Positions 15,246 to 20,730 of a stretch of 20,730 nt of DNA are shown here, piece after piece. This stretch comes from a virus: IMG/VR virus record IMGVR_UViG_3300030104_004518, positions 1-20,730 of that record. The stretch is one strand, 5' to 3'. A program made the translations under genes and the position numbers. Below the pieces are notes generated by a model. That model worked only from the letters and a program-made list of their open reading frames with translations. It was not told the origin of the DNA and searched no databases. The stretch's first letter is position 1; each line of letters starts with the position of its first letter.

Positions 15246-16040
15246 CTACTTCTTTAATACTCTTATTTTACCTCCTTTATTTTTTATAATTTTATATCCC
15301 CAGGGGGTTTCTCTTAGTAATCTAACCTTATCAATAGGTATGTTTTCTTTCGTCCACATACTCCAATCCCCTTGCCTGCTGTATGTTTTACCAAACTCTG
15401 CTGCATCTTTTGGTATTACGGCAAAATTTCCCTCACCATATCTCCTTGCAACTCCAGACTGTGGAGATACATAAAGCTCTTTAAACTCTTTTGTTAAATT
15501 AAAAGGAGACTCACCTGTTGGTTTGGTTGGTTGCCTAGGCCTTAAAACACCAGATTGAAGGGCATCATCCATGCCTTCTTTACCTAACCCTCTATAGTAA
15601 CTATTCTTAGGTATGTCATCTAGATACTCACCTAACGCTCCTCTTATTAACCTTGGTAATAAAGTTGGTAATGATCTAGCACCTAGCAAAATCTGAAATA
15701 TAGGATCTTTAACACCTTCCATTGGTTGAATAGCCCCAGTCGCCCAGTTCGCTGGATTCATTGGGTCATTAAGTCTTTCCTCAATTTCCATCCGATCTTC
15801 ATAATTTGACTGTAAGATATCATCTATACTTCCAGGACCTCCTGATTGAATATATTTATCAAAATATTGTTCCTGCTGCTCCTCTTCCGCCGTCTTAGTA
15901 GTAAACGATTCGCCTTCAAACGTAAAAGTTTCCTTCCCTTCGGCTCTAGCATCAGCAAAGGCTTTTTGGAATGGAGTTAGTTCAGGGTTTGTCCCCCCGT
16001 CTTTCATTACTCGGTACCTTTTTCGCTTTTGGATCTGCAT
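15246..16040 (-). CDS. Virion-associated protein with ADP-ribosyltransferase-like C-terminus (tentative)
   Basis: 264 residues. The N-terminus KDGGTNPELTPFQKAFADAR with KETFTFEGESFTTKTAEE matches a short module I associate with varied marine phage proteins. The middle holds an amphipathic hydrophobic stretch (FQILLGARSLPTLLPRLIRG). The C-terminal part reads YYRGLGKEGMDDALQSGVLRP (148-168), LYVSPQSGVARRYGEGNFAVIP (189-210), then KENIPIDKVRLLRE (231-244). An Arg in the first strand, Ser after a hydrophobic strand and a late Glu are the R-S-E order of ADP-ribosyltransferases, so Arg150, Ser192 and Glu232 or Glu244 are candidate catalytic residues. If true it could modify host proteins after ejection, as T4 Alt does. 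The motifs are weak; it may be purely structural. Confidence 0.5.
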   Translation of the reverse strand: MQIQKRKRYRVMKDGGTNPELTPFQKAFADARAEGKETFTFEGESFTTKTAEEEQQEQYFDKYIQSGGPGSIDDILQSNYEDRMEIEERLNDPMNPANWATGAIQPMEGVKDPIFQILLGARSLPTLLPRLIRGALGEYLDDIPKNSYYRGLGKEGMDDALQSGVLRPRQPTKPTGESPFNLTKEFKELYVSPQSGVARRYGEGNFAVIPKDAAEFGKTYSRQGDWSMWTKENIPIDKVRLLRETPWGYKIIKNKGGKIRVLKK

Positions 16041-16044
16041 AAAA

Positions 16045-16052
16045 CAAAGATA
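16045..16052 (-). promoter_or_regulatory. TAnnTTTG box before the 16040 start
   Basis: TATCTTTG matches the Bacteroidetes -7 element and ends four bases before the ATG at 16040. No TTTG/CTTG partner lies 20 bases upstream. If active it would give an almost leaderless transcript. Confidence 0.4.
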
Positions 16053-16175
16053 CTACTTCTTGGTCTTCCTCCTATACATGCTCAGGGCAATAATAACCGC
16101 CTCTTTTAGGGGTTTACCCTCCAGTACAATCTTCCTGATCTTGTCTGCAACGTATTTACTCTTATCTATCTGCAT
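16053..16175 (-). CDS. Short basic protein, first gene of the late block
   Basis: 40 residues: MQIDKSKYVADKIRKIVLEG, then KPLKEAVIIALSMYRRKTKK. The GKP-x-(K/Q)-x-AVxIALSMxRRK pattern recurs in small phage proteins of unknown role; two amphipathic helices with a basic end could bind nucleic acid or a virion partner. It is the first open frame after the predicted late promoter (start near 16260), with a leader of about 85 bases. The next gene starts 12 bases after its stop. Confidence 0.7.
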   Translation of the reverse strand: MQIDKSKYVADKIRKIVLEGKPLKEAVIIALSMYRRKTKK

Positions 16176-16213
16176 AATACAGCTATCCCGTATTTAACAT
16201 TCTAAATGCTTCT

Positions 16214-16225
16214 TGTGTATACACA
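16214..16225. promoter_or_regulatory. 12-bp palindrome in the late leader
   Basis: TGTGTATACACA is a perfect inverted repeat about 35-46 bases downstream of the predicted late start site and 39 bases before the first late gene. A dimeric repressor site is plausible. Confidence 0.4.
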
Positions 16226-16266
16226 CCAAAAACATATAGATTAGCTTTGATATGCATTATTGATAG

Positions 16267-16298
16267 CAAAGTTATAACATATTTTTTTAAAAGTCAAG
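16267..16298 (-). promoter_or_regulatory. Leftward promoter of the late block
   Basis: On the minus strand CTTG (16298-16295) is followed by exactly 20 bases and TAACTTTG (16274-16267), a full match to the Bacteroidetes -33/-7 consensus. It starts CTTGACTT, like the early promoter. The predicted start is near 16260. Confidence 0.72.
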
Positions 16299-16445
16299 TA
16301 TAAAGTGCTGATTTAAGTAAAATAGTCTAATTGACCGATTCTCAATGCTTTAGTAGGTGGAAGGGGGTATAACCATCGCAAAAAAAATACGGATCCCCCT
16401 GGGAAAAACGGCGAGAAATGTTTAGGGTGGGGATTATATGTATAT

Positions 16446-16457
16446 GTGAGCGCTCAC
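16446..16457. promoter_or_regulatory. 12-bp palindrome GTGAGCGCTCAC
   Basis: A perfect 12-bp inverted repeat in the middle of the control region, followed by two ACGT boxes. It could be an operator or an origin element. It is not near either predicted promoter. Confidence 0.4.
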
Positions 16458-16712
16458 GTCACGTAGGAAAACGCAAAATTTGACATCCCCCCCTTCGCAT
16501 ATGGGCGTATGGTACCCCCAAGTGTACGACGCTAACTTGCTGACACCCAAATGATTACCACATCTGACTTAAACCCATTGTTTAACCGCATCCCGAATAC
16601 ACGCAATTAGGCACAGTTCTACGTAACTCAGTGACAATCACACCCCTAGCATACAAGACTTAAACCTATACTCCAATACGCATCCGCATTACGCTCTCGC
16701 ATCAGGCTCACA

Positions 16713-16775
16713 CCACGCATGTACGCACGGGATACGCACGCATGTACACACGCACAACACACGCATGCATGCACG
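16713..16775. repeat. Three 23-bp-spaced direct repeats (iteron-like)
   Basis: ACGCATG occurs at 16715, 16738 and 16761, an exact 23-bp period. Copies one and two share ACGCATGTAC(G/A)CACG; copy three reads ACGCATGCATGCACG. The DNA is strongly alternating purine-pyrimidine. Iterons at a fixed helical spacing are typical of replication origins and repressor arrays. Confidence 0.6.
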
Positions 16776-16813
16776 CACACACATGATCGCACACACGCGA
16801 ATTATCGCGGGTG

Positions 16814-16830
16814 TTTTACCTTCGGTAAAA
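16814..16830. other. Short hairpin before the early promoter
   Basis: TTTTACC and GGTAAAA form a 7-bp stem around TTC. It could end stray leftward or rightward transcription or be a protein site; no long T-run follows on either strand. Confidence 0.35.
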
Positions 16831-16856
16831 GGCGCATGTAATTAGTTGCCAAAAAA

Positions 16857-16888
16857 CTTGACTTCGGTGTTTTAATACCCTATCTTTG
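16857..16888 (+). promoter_or_regulatory. Rightward promoter of the early block
   Basis: CTTG at 16857-16860, exactly 20 bases, TATCTTTG at 16881-16888: a full Bacteroidetes-type promoter. Start near 16895, giving a leader of about 40 bases. Confidence 0.72.
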
Positions 16889-16922
16889 TGGTCATCGGTT
16901 CGGCAATGTTGCCAACCACAAA
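16885..16922 (+). promoter_or_regulatory. Inverted repeat overlapping the early promoter and leader
   Basis: TTTGTGGT (16885-16892) pairs with ACCACAAA (16915-16922), and inside lies GGCAA-TG-TTGCC (16902-16913). The outer left arm covers the TTTG of the -7 box, so as DNA it fits an operator; the inner hairpin would also form in the leader RNA just before the first early ATG. Confidence 0.5.
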
Positions 16923-16933
16923 ACCAATACATC

Positions 16934-17302
16934 ATGTCTAAAGACATCAACATCAAAGACTGCCGTAAGGCAGTGAACCAAGCAAAGTTCAACCCAACGA
17001 AGGCACGCAAAGCCAACGCAATCAAACTGCTTAAGCAGTTGATGGATGCGGTTAATAACCTCGAAGAGGTTAAGGCAAAGCCAAAGCGTAAGCCGAAGGC
17101 TAAGGCTAAGCGTAAGCCTAGAAATCAGAGACTCGAAGAGTCTCAGGCAAAGCAGTCAGTAGCTGAGAACTTCATACCCGAAGCGGTGGCAGAGGTGAAC
17201 ACGCTACCCGAATTCAGCGAACTACGTTCGATGGGCTACTCGGTTGAGGATGCCGTTCGTTACGTCAAGGCTCTCATGGATGGTGCGCCACAAGTGGCGT
17301 AA
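16934..17302 (+). CDS. Basic Lys/Pro-rich DNA-binding-like protein, first early gene
   Basis: 122 residues from ATG at 16934, chosen because it carries the ATACATCATG start context shared with three other genes and lies after the predicted start site; a start at 16886 would lie in the promoter. Residues 1-45 look helical (KKLLKQLMDAVNN-like). Residues 46-65 are KPKRKPKAKAKRKPRNQR, a histone H1-like basic linker. The end, FSELRSMGYSVEDAVRYVKALMDG (about 94-117), resembles a UBA-like three-helix piece. Its codons are richer in G+C than those of neighbouring genes. It probably binds DNA or RNA early in infection; no family was recognised. Confidence 0.65.
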   Translation: MSKDINIKDCRKAVNQAKFNPTKARKANAIKLLKQLMDAVNNLEEVKAKPKRKPKAKAKRKPRNQRLEESQAKQSVAENFIPEAVAEVNTLPEFSELRSMGYSVEDAVRYVKALMDGAPQVA

Positions 17303-17310
17303 CACACACA

Positions 17311-17357
17311 AGCCTAGCACACAGGGTGCGTTGGAGGTTCGACTCCTCCTCTAGGCT
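17311..17357 (+). ncRNA. Compact tRNA-like element with perfect T-arm
   Basis: AGCCTAG (17311-17317) pairs perfectly with CTAGGCT (17351-17357). Before the 3' strand lies a canonical T-arm: GGAGG, loop TTCGACT, CCTCC (17333-17349), with conserved T54-T55-C56 and A58. Only 15 bases separate acceptor and T-arm, with a possible 3-4-bp CAC/GTG hairpin and no normal D-arm or anticodon arm. It may be a mini tRNA-like RNA, a deleted tRNA, or an attachment-site remnant. No CCA is encoded. Confidence 0.5.
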
Positions 17358-17366
17358 CTATTAGAA

Positions 17367-17412
17367 GATATAATATACTACTCCTCTCATTTATGAGAGT
17401 AGTATATATATC
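17367..17412 (+). other. Long imperfect hairpin between early genes
   Basis: ATATACTA plus CTCTCAT (17373-17390, with a CTC bulge) pair with ATGAGAGTAGTATAT (17393-17407); the stem extends through GATAT/ATATC. It lies just after the tRNA-like element and before the 17441 gene. There is no T-run, so an RNA-processing or stability hairpin is as likely as a terminator. Confidence 0.55.
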
Positions 17413-17440
17413 CTCTTACAAACCAAAAATTTTATACATC

Positions 17441-17590
17441 ATGGATAACCAATTAATCCAAGACCTGCGAATGCAGGCAGTACGTAGCCTCTTTGACGGG
17501 CTTACATTCGACCAAGCTACTAACACTTCCGACTGGGACGAACTCACATGTGATGAGCAGATGCGCCTTGAGGACTTAATCAACTCGTAA
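17441..17590 (+). CDS. Small acidic hypothetical protein
   Basis: 49 residues from ATG at 17441 (ATACATCATG context). MDNQLIQDLRMQAVRSLFDG, then LTFDQATNTSDWDELTCDEQMRLEDLINS. It is helical and acidic, with a DEL-type end. A longer frame from 17393 would begin inside the hairpin and is less likely. Small acidic early phage proteins often inhibit host enzymes by mimicking DNA or binding basic surfaces; nothing specific supports this here. No family was recognised. Confidence 0.6.
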   Translation: MDNQLIQDLRMQAVRSLFDGLTFDQATNTSDWDELTCDEQMRLEDLINS

Positions 17591-17592
17591 TC

Positions 17593-17718
17593 ATGGAGAA
17601 TACAAACTACTGCCCATGGGAGCATGCATACCAGCTATGCAAAGACCATTACACGAAGGATGAAATCGACGAAATGTCGTTCTGTGAAATTAAAGAAATA
17701 ATACTCGACCAAGACTAA
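17593..17718 (+). CDS. Small acidic hypothetical protein
   Basis: 41 residues: MENTNYCPWEHAYQLCKDHY, then TKDEIDEMSFCEIKEIILDQD. Three Cys and one His are spread too widely for a clear metal site. It starts two bases after the previous stop and ends one base before the next start, which is the tight packing typical of real genes here. No family was recognised. Confidence 0.55.
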   Translation: MENTNYCPWEHAYQLCKDHYTKDEIDEMSFCEIKEIILDQD

Positions 17719-17719
17719 C

Positions 17720-18142
17720 ATGACACAAGACCACACAATCAGACAAGCGTACATCAACACGCTACTTGATGGCGGATATACACGCCTTTTAGACCGCACA
17801 GTCAACCCAACCGAAGGCTACATCATAGGCGGTGTAACTGAACCAACCACTATGCTGTTTGGGGGATTTATCAGCAGTGCATACGCTGACGTAAGCGAAC
17901 ACTACGCTAAGTTCAAACAGCTATGGGGAAAGTATGACGTATTACTTGACGAACACAAAGACACATATCGTATGCATAAGTTCACCGCTGGACTGGGTAT
18001 AGGTACATGGATACACGATGGTCAGATATACTTTGACCTTGTGCAACACTTGTACAACCTTGAAATAGCTACGAGGGAGGCAAAGAAACGTGGAGAAATC
18101 GCAATCTACGACTGCAAAAACCAAAAAGATATATTACTATGA
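17720..18142 (+). CDS. Conserved-type phage hypothetical protein
   Basis: 140 residues. The C-terminal half LGIGTWIHDGQIYFDLVQHLYNLEIATREAKKRGEIAIYDCKN (about 93-135) follows a pattern I recall from uncharacterised early phage proteins: GTW-x-x-(D/N)G-x-(V/I)Y-x-D, a helix, then (L/I)AI-(Y/F)D. The N-terminal part is Gly-rich and hydrophobic (TEGYIIGGVTEPTTMLFGGFISSA), resembling a short loop-strand core rather than a membrane helix. It begins one base after the previous stop and its TGA overlaps the next ATG (ATGA). The function is unknown. Confidence 0.65.
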   Translation: MTQDHTIRQAYINTLLDGGYTRLLDRTVNPTEGYIIGGVTEPTTMLFGGFISSAYADVSEHYAKFKQLWGKYDVLLDEHKDTYRMHKFTAGLGIGTWIHDGQIYFDLVQHLYNLEIATREAKKRGEIAIYDCKNQKDILL

Positions 18143-18318
18143 CAGATTTACAGAAAGCATCATTCGTGCTTAATGCACACCACAACACACCAAGCGAAGA
18201 GGTAGGCGGTAGACTATACATCAACGTATCAGAGCATCTGTGTGTAGCCATACACGATGAAGAGATACACTACCTAGCTGAACGCTACGATGAAGAAATT
18301 AACGAATCAAACCAATAA
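18139..18318 (+). CDS. Small acidic hypothetical protein
   Basis: 59 residues: MTDLQKASFVLNAHHNTPSE, then EVGGRLYINVSEHLCVAIHDEEIHYLAERYDEEINESNQ. Two short strands are followed by a helix; the HDEEIHYLAERYDEE end could be a metal-binding helix, but this is speculative. The start overlaps the previous stop as ATGA, showing coupling. No family was recognised. Confidence 0.6.
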   Translation: MTDLQKASFVLNAHHNTPSEEVGGRLYINVSEHLCVAIHDEEIHYLAERYDEEINESNQ

Positions 18319-18321
18319 AAC

Positions 18322-18615
18322 ATGAGCAAAGAATTATTAAAAACAATCGAGGCACAAGGCAAGCTGATAACAGAGTTACGTGCAGAAATCGAGGAAATCA
18401 AGTGGGAAAGAGGCGGTACACTTGTAGACCTGCGTGAAGAGAACGAGCAAATACGCCAGACTTACCTAGAACTTGCCGAATTATCTATGGAGTTGGTAGA
18501 TTACAACTACGATACCGAGCGAACACACTACGATGAGACAATAGATGAAGATGGTGAAGGTGGCGAAGGTCACATATTCCACACTCTTGTTAAGATACAG
18601 AAACTAACAGATTAA
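18322..18615 (+). CDS. Coiled-coil hypothetical protein
   Basis: 97 residues. Residues 1-58 are a continuous heptad-like helix (LLKTIEAQGKLITELRAEIEEI, LREENEQIRQTYLELAEL), then an acidic loop DEDGEGGEGH and a short end HIFHTLVKIQKLTD. A dimeric coiled coil is likely. It starts three bases after the previous stop with an AAAACATG context. The function is unknown. Confidence 0.62.
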   Translation: MSKELLKTIEAQGKLITELRAEIEEIKWERGGTLVDLREENEQIRQTYLELAELSMELVDYNYDTERTHYDETIDEDGEGGEGHIFHTLVKIQKLTD

Positions 18616-18626
18616 ACCAATCAAAC

Positions 18627-18710
18627 ATGAAAAACAAACTAATAACAATCGTGCTAAGCACATGGACAATCTTTGTAGTAAGCGCATGCACAATAGCAAT
18701 AGCATCATGA
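18627..18710 (+). CDS. Very small membrane or lipoprotein-like peptide
   Basis: 27 residues: MKNKLITIVLSTWTIFVVSA then CTIAIAS. A basic start, a hydrophobic stretch and VSAC form a lipobox-like signal, so the peptide could be lipidated at Cys21, or it could be a single-span membrane peptide. The TGA overlaps the next ATG (ATGA), which argues that the frame is translated. Its size is close to the minimum for a gene; a role in envelope change or lysis is guesswork. Confidence 0.45.
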   Translation: MKNKLITIVLSTWTIFVVSACTIAIAS

Positions 18711-18856
18711 ATAGGATATTCAACCCATACAGAGGATTTAGTTTCGAGGAACTAGAACTAGCATACGAGTACTTTACATGGTGCGAGGATTCAGAGGGCG
18801 TAAGCCTAGTGGCAGAGGCATTCTGTGAACAAGCAAAATTAGATATTAACTTATAA
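18707..18856 (+). CDS. Small acidic hypothetical protein
   Basis: 49 residues from the ATG that overlaps the previous TGA: MNRIFNPYRGFSFEELELAY, then EYFTWCEDSEGVSLVAEAFCEQAKLDINL. Acidic helices dominate. An upstream in-frame start at 18662 would read through the small membrane peptide in another frame and is less likely. No family was recognised. Confidence 0.55.
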   Translation: MNRIFNPYRGFSFEELELAYEYFTWCEDSEGVSLVAEAFCEQAKLDINL

Positions 18857-18868
18857 AAACCAATAAAC

Positions 18869-19204
18869 ATGGGATTACTAGAAAGAGCAGATGAAGTGTA
18901 CGAAATGTACAGAGATGACGGATGGATGTGGGGTGTACCGCATACAAAATCGATCGGATTACCTAAGTACAAGCAGAACCTATCTGTACGCAAAGAGTAT
19001 CACGGCTCATACGGATGGCGAATCATCGTCAAAAGTTATGATACTGACGTTGCGTGGGGGTTTGAGAGTCTAGGTTCATTGGTCGTATCTGACTACCACT
19101 CACCTACCACATCTAAGCACATCAGCTATGTAGCTGAGCAGTTGGGTATGGTGGTGAGGAAATGCTACGATGACAAGGCTGAGAAGGTCAATAGATACAA
19201 GTAA
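18869..19204 (+). CDS. Hypothetical protein, last gene before the internal promoter
   Basis: 111 residues, aromatic-rich: LLERADEVYEMYRDDGWMWG, then SVRKEYHGSYGWRIIVKSYDTDVAWGFESLGSLVVSDYHSPTTSKHISYVAEQLG. Mixed beta strands are followed by a C-terminal helix (EQLGMVVRKCYDDKAEKVN). It is preceded by ACCAATAAACATG, the usual internal start context here. A gap of about 95 bases containing a promoter follows it. The function is unknown. Confidence 0.6.
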   Translation: MGLLERADEVYEMYRDDGWMWGVPHTKSIGLPKYKQNLSVRKEYHGSYGWRIIVKSYDTDVAWGFESLGSLVVSDYHSPTTSKHISYVAEQLGMVVRKCYDDKAEKVNRYK

Positions 19205-19228
19205 TAACTACGTTATTAGAAAAATAAA

Positions 19229-19260
19229 TTTGGAATTTGGAAAAGTCTGTCGTATATTAG
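19229..19260 (+). promoter_or_regulatory. Internal early promoter
   Basis: TTTG (19229-19232), exactly 20 bases, TATATTAG (19253-19260). Start near 19267, about 33 bases before the 19300 ATG. It shares TCGTATAyT and AGCAGTCC (19259-19266) with the promoter at 10813, suggesting a common phage or host regulator. Confidence 0.6.
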
Positions 19261-19299
19261 CAGTCCGATTCAAACCAATCGAAAACCAATTAATACATC

Positions 19300-19425
19300 A
19301 TGGACGTAATAGATAACATTATCGAAGTGTACCGAATGGAAGGGTACACAATCACTCGTGAAGAGGCAATAGAAATCAACGATGCAATAGACTTTGCATA
19401 CGAAACATGGACAAAAAACCAATAA
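19300..19425 (+). CDS. Small acidic hypothetical protein
   Basis: 41 residues: MDVIDNIIEVYRMEGYTITR, then EEAIEINDAIDFAYETWTKNQ. Two acidic helices. The ATG is preceded by ATACATC, as in the first genes of the other early segments, and the gene follows a predicted promoter. The next gene starts two bases after its stop. No family was recognised. Confidence 0.6.
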   Translation: MDVIDNIIEVYRMEGYTITREEAIEINDAIDFAYETWTKNQ

Positions 19426-19427
19426 TC

Positions 19428-19658
19428 ATGAAAACATTTGAAATAGAAGTGGTGCGTACATACACCACCACAATCGAGGTGGAACTACCTGACAAGTATT
19501 ATCCATCATACGTTGAGGAAATAACGCTTGGAAACATGCCTTACGAAGAATGGCTGAGTATTCAAGATATATACAGCGAAATATGGGATAAGATAGGCGA
19601 GGGAGAGCTTGAGCAATGCGACACAGATATGCAATCAATAAACGTAAAGGAATTATGA
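19428..19658 (+). CDS. Small acidic hypothetical protein
   Basis: 76 residues from ATG at 19428 (an in-frame start at 19407 would overlap the previous gene). MKTFEIEVVRTYTTTIEVEL is a clear two-strand beta hairpin, followed by PDKYYPSYVEEITLGNMPYEEWLSIQDIYSEIWD, a helical acidic part. The TGA overlaps the next ATG (ATGA). Beta-hairpin-plus-helix proteins of this kind are common early phage proteins of unknown function. Confidence 0.58.
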   Translation: MKTFEIEVVRTYTTTIEVELPDKYYPSYVEEITLGNMPYEEWLSIQDIYSEIWDKIGEGELEQCDTDMQSINVKEL

Positions 19659-19912
19659 AGTACGCTAGACAATGCTCAGTAACGGGCGAAGGAATGAATG
19701 ATGGCTATGTAGTAGGCGATGGTGAAATGCACATCAAGTACGAGAAAGACCTTATCGCTCTTATCCGTTCACGGGGTGGGATGTACTTCCTGTCTAACGA
19801 ATACATACTAGCTGAAAGCTATCAGCTAGGGGAATACTATTGGACGGAATGGGATGATGAGAGCGAGTACCAATACGAAGAAGTAAACGGAAAACTAATT
19901 GAAATAAACTAA
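19655..19912 (+). CDS. Small Cys-containing hypothetical protein
   Basis: 85 residues from the overlapping ATG: MKYARQCSVTGEGMNDGYVV, then GDGEMHIKYEKDLIALIRSRGG and ESYQLGEYYWTEWDDESEYQYEEVNG. The start C-x-x-TG-x-x-MN-x-GY followed by a GE-x-(Y/H) strand and a late YYWTEWDD recalls a family of short Bacteroidetes-phage proteins that I know only as hypothetical. A single Cys excludes a zinc knuckle. The non-coding tandem RNA element follows directly. Confidence 0.6.
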   Translation: MKYARQCSVTGEGMNDGYVVGDGEMHIKYEKDLIALIRSRGGMYFLSNEYILAESYQLGEYYWTEWDDESEYQYEEVNGKLIEIN

Positions 19913-19919
19913 TAAACAA

Positions 19920-19987
19920 GGTGTGTAATGGTGTAGACTAATACACGTTTGATAATAGCGAAGTCGTTGCGACACCAAGCTATTGCC
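19920..19987 (+). ncRNA. Structured RNA motif, copy 1 of a tandem pair
   Basis: 68 bases. AATAGC (19954-19959) pairs with GCTATT (19979-19984); inside, GTCG-TTG-CGAC (19963-19973) forms a stem, leaving internal loops GAA and ACCAA. An upstream TGGT (19929-19932) can pair with ACCA (19974-19977) as a pseudoknot. It is about 74 percent identical to copy 2 and lies 74 bases upstream of it. No known riboswitch or ribozyme was recognised. Confidence 0.6.
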
Positions 19988-19995
19988 CGTAAGGG
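19986..19995 (+). other. GNRA-type hairpin joining the two RNA copies
   Basis: CCC-GTAA-GGG: a three-pair stem closing a GTAA tetraloop. It uses the end of copy 1 and the start of copy 2, so it may stack the two units as one compact RNA. Confidence 0.45.
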
Positions 19996-20062
19996 TGCGT
20001 GATGGTAATAACTACGACACACTTAATAAGAGAGAAGTCATGTGCGACACCAACCTCTTGCC
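19994..20062 (+). ncRNA. Structured RNA motif, copy 2 of a tandem pair
   Basis: 69 bases sharing GAAGTC and GCGACACCAA exactly with copy 1. AAGAG (20028-20032) pairs with CTCTT (20055-20059); a T-A pair of copy 1 is a G-C pair here, a compensatory change. The outer C-G of copy 1 is lost (A/C). TGGT and ACCA are again present for a pseudoknot. Located 40 bases before the next gene's ATG. Confidence 0.6.
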
Positions 20063-20068
20063 TTTTTT
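20028..20068 (+). terminator. Possible intrinsic terminator formed by RNA copy 2
   Basis: The AAGAG/CTCTT stem of copy 2 is followed two bases later by a run of six T (20063-20068). The stem is short and has a large internal loop, so termination could depend on the RNA fold, which would suit a regulated switch before the 20103 gene. Confidence 0.35.
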
Positions 20069-20102
20069 ATTTTACTAAAACAAATCAAACAAATAATACA
20101 TC

Positions 20103-20339
20103 ATGAAATCATTACTAATTAAATCAAAACTATTCGGGGACTTAGTAATCCCTGCAGGCGACTTCGAAGAAAGCAGAGATATATGGGATAGCTTATGCCC
20201 ATACATAGACATCAACGTATTCGGTGAGGGTGACGACATACAAGTTAACATATACCCCGTAAAGGACGGACTAACATGTACTGACAGAGAACTCGAAGTT
20301 ATAGAAAACGTAGAACTAATTGACGACTTAACATCATGA
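20103..20339 (+). CDS. Small acidic hypothetical protein downstream of tandem RNA
   Basis: 78 residues: MKSLLIKSKLFGDLVIPAGD, then FEESRDIWDSLCPYIDINVFGEGDDIQVNIYPVKDGLTCTDRELEVIENVELIDD. It is beta-rich and strongly acidic. The ATG carries the ATACATCATG context of a leading gene, and the tandem RNA lies just upstream, so this gene and the two coupled after it are the likely targets of that RNA. Its TGA overlaps the next ATG. No family was recognised. Confidence 0.6.
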   Translation: MKSLLIKSKLFGDLVIPAGDFEESRDIWDSLCPYIDINVFGEGDDIQVNIYPVKDGLTCTDRELEVIENVELIDDLTS

Positions 20340-20524
20340 ATTTAACAGACAAAATAATTGCCTACGAGTGTGGGGATATAGACGAAGCGGGAATACTACA
20401 ACTATTCTCTGAGCTAATCAGCAATGGTATGGCATGGACGCTACAAGGTAGCTACGGGCGAACTGCATCAGCCCTGATCGATGCAGGTTACATAGACACA
20501 GACGGAAACATTACAATGATATGA
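20336..20524 (+). CDS. Small phage protein of the LQGxYGR type
   Basis: 62 residues: LTDKIIAYECGDIDEAGILQ, LFSELISNGMAWTLQGSYGRTASALIDAGYI. The sequence YE-x-G-(D/E)-(I/L)...LF-x-x-L-(I/V)-x-x-G-x-AW-x-LQG-x-YGR-x-A-x-x-LI-x-x-G-x-(I/L) is a recurrent small-protein family in many phages, including cyanophages, so this is a real gene. Its function is not known. The start overlaps the previous stop (ATGA), and the end overlaps the next start. Confidence 0.72.
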   Translation: MNLTDKIIAYECGDIDEAGILQLFSELISNGMAWTLQGSYGRTASALIDAGYIDTDGNITMI

Positions 20525-20709
20525 GTAAACTACCTAGACACCCAAAAGACAGAGGCTACGGATTCTTGAAGGCTTGTGAATACCCAGAAACACAAACAGG
20601 CTTCGCATCATTCAGCATGCACGAACTAGCTGAACTAATTACTAAACCAATTAAACCAAAACAAAATGAGTTACACGACACAAGAACAAATGGAACAATA
20701 CATAGATAA
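20521..20709 (+). CDS. Small hypothetical protein
   Basis: 62 residues: MSKLPRHPKDRGYGFLKACE, then YPETQTGFASFSMHELAELITKPIKPKQNELHDTRTNGTIHR. The first half is basic and the middle FSMHELAEL forms a short helix. The ATG overlaps the previous TGA as ATGA, showing coupling. The C-terminal 14 codons overlap a possible next gene at 20666, so the true end could be read in two ways. No family was recognised. Confidence 0.55.
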   Translation: MSKLPRHPKDRGYGFLKACEYPETQTGFASFSMHELAELITKPIKPKQNELHDTRTNGTIHR

Positions 20710-20730
20710 CTTCTATGAGTGCGACACTGA
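20666..20730 (+). CDS. Start of a further early gene, cut by the window edge
   Basis: From ATG at 20666 an open frame runs to the edge: MSYTTQEQMEQYIDNFYECD then T. It is preceded by AACCAAAACAAAATG, like other internal starts here, and its residue make-up is that of the surrounding acidic early proteins. A 44-bp overlap with the previous frame is the main objection. Confidence 0.4.
   Translation, partial: MSYTTQEQMEQYIDNFYECDT

Follow-up and report, generated by a model that had tools for sequence, protein, structure and literature searches.

A tandem repeat element, possibly a non-coding RNA cassette, in a variable early-operon slot of a flavobacterial podovirus

In glycine-type tandem riboswitches, a gene is preceded by two consecutive RNA units that resemble each other. 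Tandem RNA repeats are also found in type III toxin-antitoxin arrays (ToxI, CptI, TenpI), whose antitoxin repeats are about 35-50 nt long, and in phage pseudo-antitoxins. The RNA anti-CRISPRs (Racr), by contrast, are solitary repeat units that mimic host CRISPR repeats (PMC10651486). The element examined here recalls the first of these in having two similar units upstream of a gene, and the last in looking like a small, repeat-like non-coding RNA in a phage. The original prediction, made from the letters of the DNA, had likened it to a cooperative riboswitch that ends in a T-run, with a regulatory or structural phage RNA given as equally possible. We tentatively read it as an orphan non-coding RNA cassette, autonomous or trans-acting, at a position of the early operon whose content varies.

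The early-operon slot and its neighbours

The window, i.e., the whole stretch of 20,730 nucleotides that was analyzed, is a linear record of 20.7 kb from a marine bacterial virus; among named phages, the nearest terminases to its own are those of podoviruses including the Flavobacterium phages elemo. The element lies between two small early genes, A and B, in the same orientation as the early operon (plus strand). The features around it are:

19230..19260, plus strand: promoter-like TTG-N20-TATATTAG, ahead of the operon to which the element would belong; conserved in the related record L232
19658..19912, plus strand: gene A, 84 aa, function not assignable from Pfam or PHROG
19913..20102, plus strand: non-coding gap of 190 nt between genes A and B, which holds the element
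20084..20105, plus strand: gene B's own leader, AAACAAATAATACATC-ATG (repeat families D1, D3 and D4); the same type precedes other early genes
20103..20339, plus strand: gene B, 78 aa, found in six related contigs, all without the element

Neither gene A nor gene B has a match in Pfam or PHROG; gene A has homologues in related phages, and also in phi38:1 and Calle, two phages of Cellulophaga. Further upstream, at window positions 16858-16888, TTG-N20-TATCTTTG precedes the first early gene (16931) and matches the Bacteroidetes promoter consensus in full.

The space between genes A and B varies among relatives. In L203 and L204 the two homologues are only 17 nt apart, and the slot is empty; L232, L233 and L236 have a small protein gene ahead of B; and in L231 several genes separate A from B. 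Cellulophaga phage phi38:1 has a tRNA-Glu gene directly after its gene A homologue. Because the slot is either empty or filled with protein genes in relatives, we regard the element as an optional cassette in a variable slot. Gene B has the leader ACATC-ATG in the window, next to the element, as well as in relatives that lack the element, and the leader is therefore independent of it. In L206, positions 2166-2204 hold an apparently truncated gene B (MKSLLIKSHTK, then a stop), which suggests that cassettes are exchanged in the early region.

These observations bear on the reading in which the element is a cis leader of gene B, that is, an attenuator, riboswitch or translational switch. It sits immediately before gene B, shares its orientation and ends in six T, as such a leader would. 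However, the six related contigs carry gene B and its usual leader without the element. An optional cassette next to an element-independent leader argues against a riboswitch dedicated to gene B, and would favor an RNA that is autonomous or acts in trans.

No open reading frame of 50 aa exists in the gap (19913-20102). A shorter one, of 34 codons, opens at the ATG at 20002 and closes with a TGA, whose overlap with the gene B ATG is the one feature that would suggest a short coding region. The equivalent ATG in copy 1, however, meets a TAG after one further codon, and the 34-codon frame has no ACATC leader and passes through the T-run; we consider that it is coding to be very improbable.

Sequence and predicted fold of the two copies

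The element consists of two copies, delimited by their alignment:

19921..19988, plus strand: copy 1
19995..20062, plus strand: copy 2, whose start is spaced 74 nt from that of copy 1

Of the 69 columns in this alignment 51 are identical, 16 hold substitutions and 2 hold gaps, and blastn recovers the self-match at 75% over 69 nt with an E value of 8e-6 (in the set of relatives), which places the tandem repeat beyond chance. Both contain GAAGTC (19960-19965 and 20034-20039), the 11-nt block TGCGACACCAA (19968-19978 and 20043-20053) and TGGT (19929-19932 and 20003-20006). ACTA is conserved equally with TGGT (19937-19940 and 20011-20014), and ACCA is conserved between copies as well. The original prediction had described two similar copies with these shared blocks and TGGT, at about 74% identity, ahead of an early gene, joined by CCC-GTAA-GGG (19986-19995) and followed by six T (20063-20068); all of this is present. 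The compensatory change from T-A to G-C that it reported for the AATAG/CTATT stem is likewise real (AAGAG/CTCTT in copy 2), yet the adjacent pair breaks.

The predicted fold comprises the following parts:

19921..19948, plus strand: hairpin P1a of copy 1, tipped by TGGT and ACTA; predicted at -8.6 kcal/mol and present in the consensus fold
19954..19984, plus strand: hairpin P2a, AATAGC...GCTATT, with GAAGTC, an inner GTCG/CGAC and ACACCAA; predicted at -9.0 kcal/mol (19952-19986)
19986..19995, plus strand: linker hairpin CCC-GTAA-GGG with a GNRA-type loop, predicted at -6.0 kcal/mol (19985-19998); as a single copy it allows no covariation comparison
19994..20023, plus strand: hairpin P1b of copy 2, with TGGT and ACTA, predicted at -7.7 kcal/mol
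20028..20059, plus strand: hairpin P2b, AAGAG...CTCTT, predicted at -6.0 kcal/mol (20026-20062)
20063..20068, plus strand: six consecutive T, separated from the P2b stem by three bases (GCC); the site fails the terminator scan

Between P2a and copy 2 there is one compensatory pair; beside it, a C-G pair of copy 1 becomes A.C in copy 2, and pairing is lost. The GTC/GAC and TGGT/ACCA pairs are invariant between the copies and thus provide zero covariation evidence. TGGT, moreover, has an alternative partner, in that it can pair locally with the conserved ACTA. That is, of the proposed inner GTC/GAC stem and TGGT/ACCA pseudoknot, the sequences are indeed conserved, but covariation does not support the pairings, and TGGT has a second possible mate.

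The folding energy of each copy by itself is ordinary (z -1.1 and -0.8). When the two copies are folded jointly and compared with shuffles, the plus strand gives z -1.7 and the minus strand z -0.75. The two-copy consensus fold, set against 2000 column shuffles, gives z -2.5 (p 0.018), and 16 of the 20 pairs of copy 1 are retained in copy 2 (p 0.045); under a stricter test, in which the same substitutions are placed at random, the consensus energy reaches p 0.07. That each copy forms two hairpins, P1 and P2, is in our assessment moderately supported. The broader proposal of a structured phage RNA made of two similar units draws moderate support, short of proof, from the plus-strand fold, the consensus fold, the one compensatory pair, the non-coding character, the orientation and the optional position.

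The element might instead be a relic or neutral stretch, in which a once-functional repeat was duplicated and is decaying between genes. That only one instance is found, that the copies have diverged by 24-26% and that the structure tests reach just p 0.02-0.07 all accord with decay. Against it, GAAGTC and the 11-nt TGCGACACCAA are unchanged while substitutions are concentrated elsewhere, and 16 of 20 pairs are kept. We hold this reading to be less probable than the RNA cassette. A function at the level of DNA, whether in recombination or as a pair of binding sites for protein, would agree with direct repeats that contain internal inverted repeats. Nevertheless, the unit has no further copies in the early region (16000-20730), no significant direct repeats flank it, it is not in the large divergent intergenic region (16041-16933), the expected place for sites of control or replication, and its fold is preferred on the plus strand; such a function is improbable.

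In the fold of the full-length element, the strands of P1a and P1b are exchanged into one rod of -39.5 kcal/mol, as compared with -32.9 kcal/mol for the fold with local domains only. For a cis leader, the switching step would be this exchange of P1 strands between copies, or the pairing of TGGT with ACTA versus ACCA. The two alternative folds, and the conservation of TGGT, ACTA and ACCA alike, speak for such a switch. Strand exchange, however, is possible for any two tandem hairpins and is thus not evidence for one; the T-run site fails terminator criteria; and the element has, in the collections searched, no homologue ahead of another gene and matches no Rfam riboswitch. We consider the cis leader unlikely, and rank it below the relic. 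Far less likely than either is a two-domain phage RNA with a new fold, in which P1 strands exchanged between copies would mediate cooperative ligand sensing or protein sequestration in early infection.

Homologue searches and other RNAs of related phages

A search of Rfam over the window returned no family at the gathering threshold, the best match below it having an E value of 2.9 on the opposite strand. According to ARAGORN and Rfam the element is neither a tRNA nor a tmRNA. The 74-nt spacing had suggested degenerate tRNAs, a candidate rejected because acceptor stem and T arm are both absent from the copies. Blastn of the element against named phages gave no meaningful match.

Four patterns were scanned in IMG/VR. 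For GAAGTC..GCGACACC and ATGGT..GARGTY..GCRAMACCAA, the matches listed were scattered, without flanking stems, and attributable to chance or coding sequence. The tandem pattern (GCGAMACCAA twice) and the strict pattern (ATGGT..GAAGTC..GCGACACCAA) were enumerated completely, with the same outcome. In GTDB genomes the strict pattern had 40 matches, none with stems, many being versions of one coding sequence that resembles rpoB. A covariance model built from copies 1 and 2 (R1) found nothing over 49 related virus records and 13 further records (4 named phages), or over 100 loci taken from the ATGGT..GARGTY..GCRAMACCAA scan. In 397 genomes from the family of Flavobacterium saccharophilum its matches scored 22-28 bits, without the conserved blocks and at the count expected by chance. 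Several related records stop short of the early region, the nearest relatives of the window may have been excluded and JGI metagenomes lie outside the collections searched, so that an absence of homologues is not proven.

Within these collections, then, the covariance model yielded no homologues with compensatory changes. With one instance known there is no covariation across species, and with no relative found the riboswitch label is not justified. Taken together, these results do not support a tandem cooperative riboswitch with a terminal T-run: no fold backed by covariation across species emerged from the IMG/VR and GTDB patterns, the 62 phage records or the 397 genomes; as to an expression platform, the terminator scan rejects the T6 site, and the stem 3 nt ahead of it is weak and below terminator grade; the best fold swaps the P1 strands; and relatives have gene B without the element.

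Related phages carry other structured RNA cassettes. One is a three-way-junction RNA of about 75 nt, seen in several phage groups, with invariant loops TTAGGCGAAACCAA and CTATATGGCGTG; among relatives, loops AGGCGAAACC and CTATATGGCGTG are invariant. It occurs at:

L205 5874-5951, L236 5309-5383, L357 2250-2324 and L364 8-81: three-way-junction RNA
L368 1082-1158 and L356 4062-4137, minus strand: three-way-junction RNA
L359, L362, L366, L370, L371 and L373: further carriers

Compensating changes affect 10 of its 16 pairs, which 0 of 500 shuffles reach, and it has no match in Rfam; it looks like an undescribed RNA family. Members score 74-92 bits with its covariance model (R2), and the 397-genome family sample holds nothing above about 26 bits. 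Two instances (L205 5854-5970, and L368) have perfect direct repeats on either side of the RNA, 17 nt (ACTAGTAATGCACTAAA) and 19 nt (ATTAAATCACATACAAAAT) long, which duplicate the last stretch of the gene ahead of it (0 of 200 shuffles); this is the pattern that insertion with a target duplication would leave. The L236 copy comes immediately downstream of the promoter, a place where the RNA is missing from the window and L232.

The three-way-junction RNA and the tandem element both lie between small early genes and have GCGA(A/C)ACCAA and ATGG in common. Kinship on the basis of GCGA(A/C)ACCAA was nonetheless rejected, as R2, which describes a closing stem and hairpins with loops AGGCGAAACC and TATATGGCGT, fails on the element's plus strand: with filters off and E up to 10, the element is not listed there. 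Since a single shared 10-mer, itself with one mismatch, would arise by chance when so many are compared, and since R2 does not match, we keep the two RNAs apart.

The second kind is tRNA-like:

window 17311-17357 (47 nt), L232 3514-3558 and L236 3819-3863: tRNA-like RNA of 45-47 nt
L202 7110-7213, L206 4517-4610, L236 8018-8115, L203 5826-5899 and L205 8647-8720: further tRNA-like loci

The 45-47-nt RNA has an acceptor-like stem of 7 bp with a compensating change (AGCCTAG/CTAGGCT in the window, AGCCAAG/CTTGGCT in relatives). Its T arm carries TTCGACT or TTCGAAT, and where the D and anticodon arms would be there is a hairpin, GCAC-ACAGG-GTGC. Neither ARAGORN nor Rfam calls it. The further loci have an acceptor-like stem and a T arm around an abnormal or enlarged middle, and are not called as tRNAs. 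The three-way-junction RNA and the 47-nt tRNA-like RNA are better supported than the tandem element.

Interpretation and comparison with known systems

The cassette has two diverged, co-oriented copies and no ORF of 50 aa, its position is optional and gene B has a leader of its own. Tandem copies, consensus fold, strand preference, the variable slot, the element-independent leader and the other RNA cassettes of relatives together lead us to favor an autonomous or trans-acting RNA. The single instance, the ordinary single-copy folding energy and the one broken pair weigh against it. The orphan RNA cassette is thus our first choice, though a tentative one, ahead of the decayed relic and then of the cis leader. 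Such an RNA would be made from the promoter near 19230 as part of the early-operon transcript, or be released from it, and would work on its own or in trans in the early phase of infection. It may serve as a decoy or regulator, e.g., by binding a host or phage factor, and the two copies would raise its valency. If the element is an RNA gene, the swappable early slots of flavobacterial podoviruses hold non-coding RNAs besides small proteins, and protein-only annotation would miss host-takeover functions; the better-supported RNA families in the same phages make the idea testable.

With respect to known systems, the element differs from glycine-type riboswitches in having no Rfam aptamer, terminator-grade stem or ligand-related gene, and in that gene B exists without it. 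With regard to the Racrs, the core blocks of the element gave only chance or coding matches in GTDB genomes. As to type III antitoxin arrays, its spacing of 74 is longer than their repeats, no ToxN-like endoribonuclease is recognized beside it (genes A and B being without Pfam matches), and its 78-aa neighbor also occurs without the repeats; what it shares with these arrays and with phage pseudo-antitoxins is the tandem RNA repeats, the compact locus and the possible pseudoknots.
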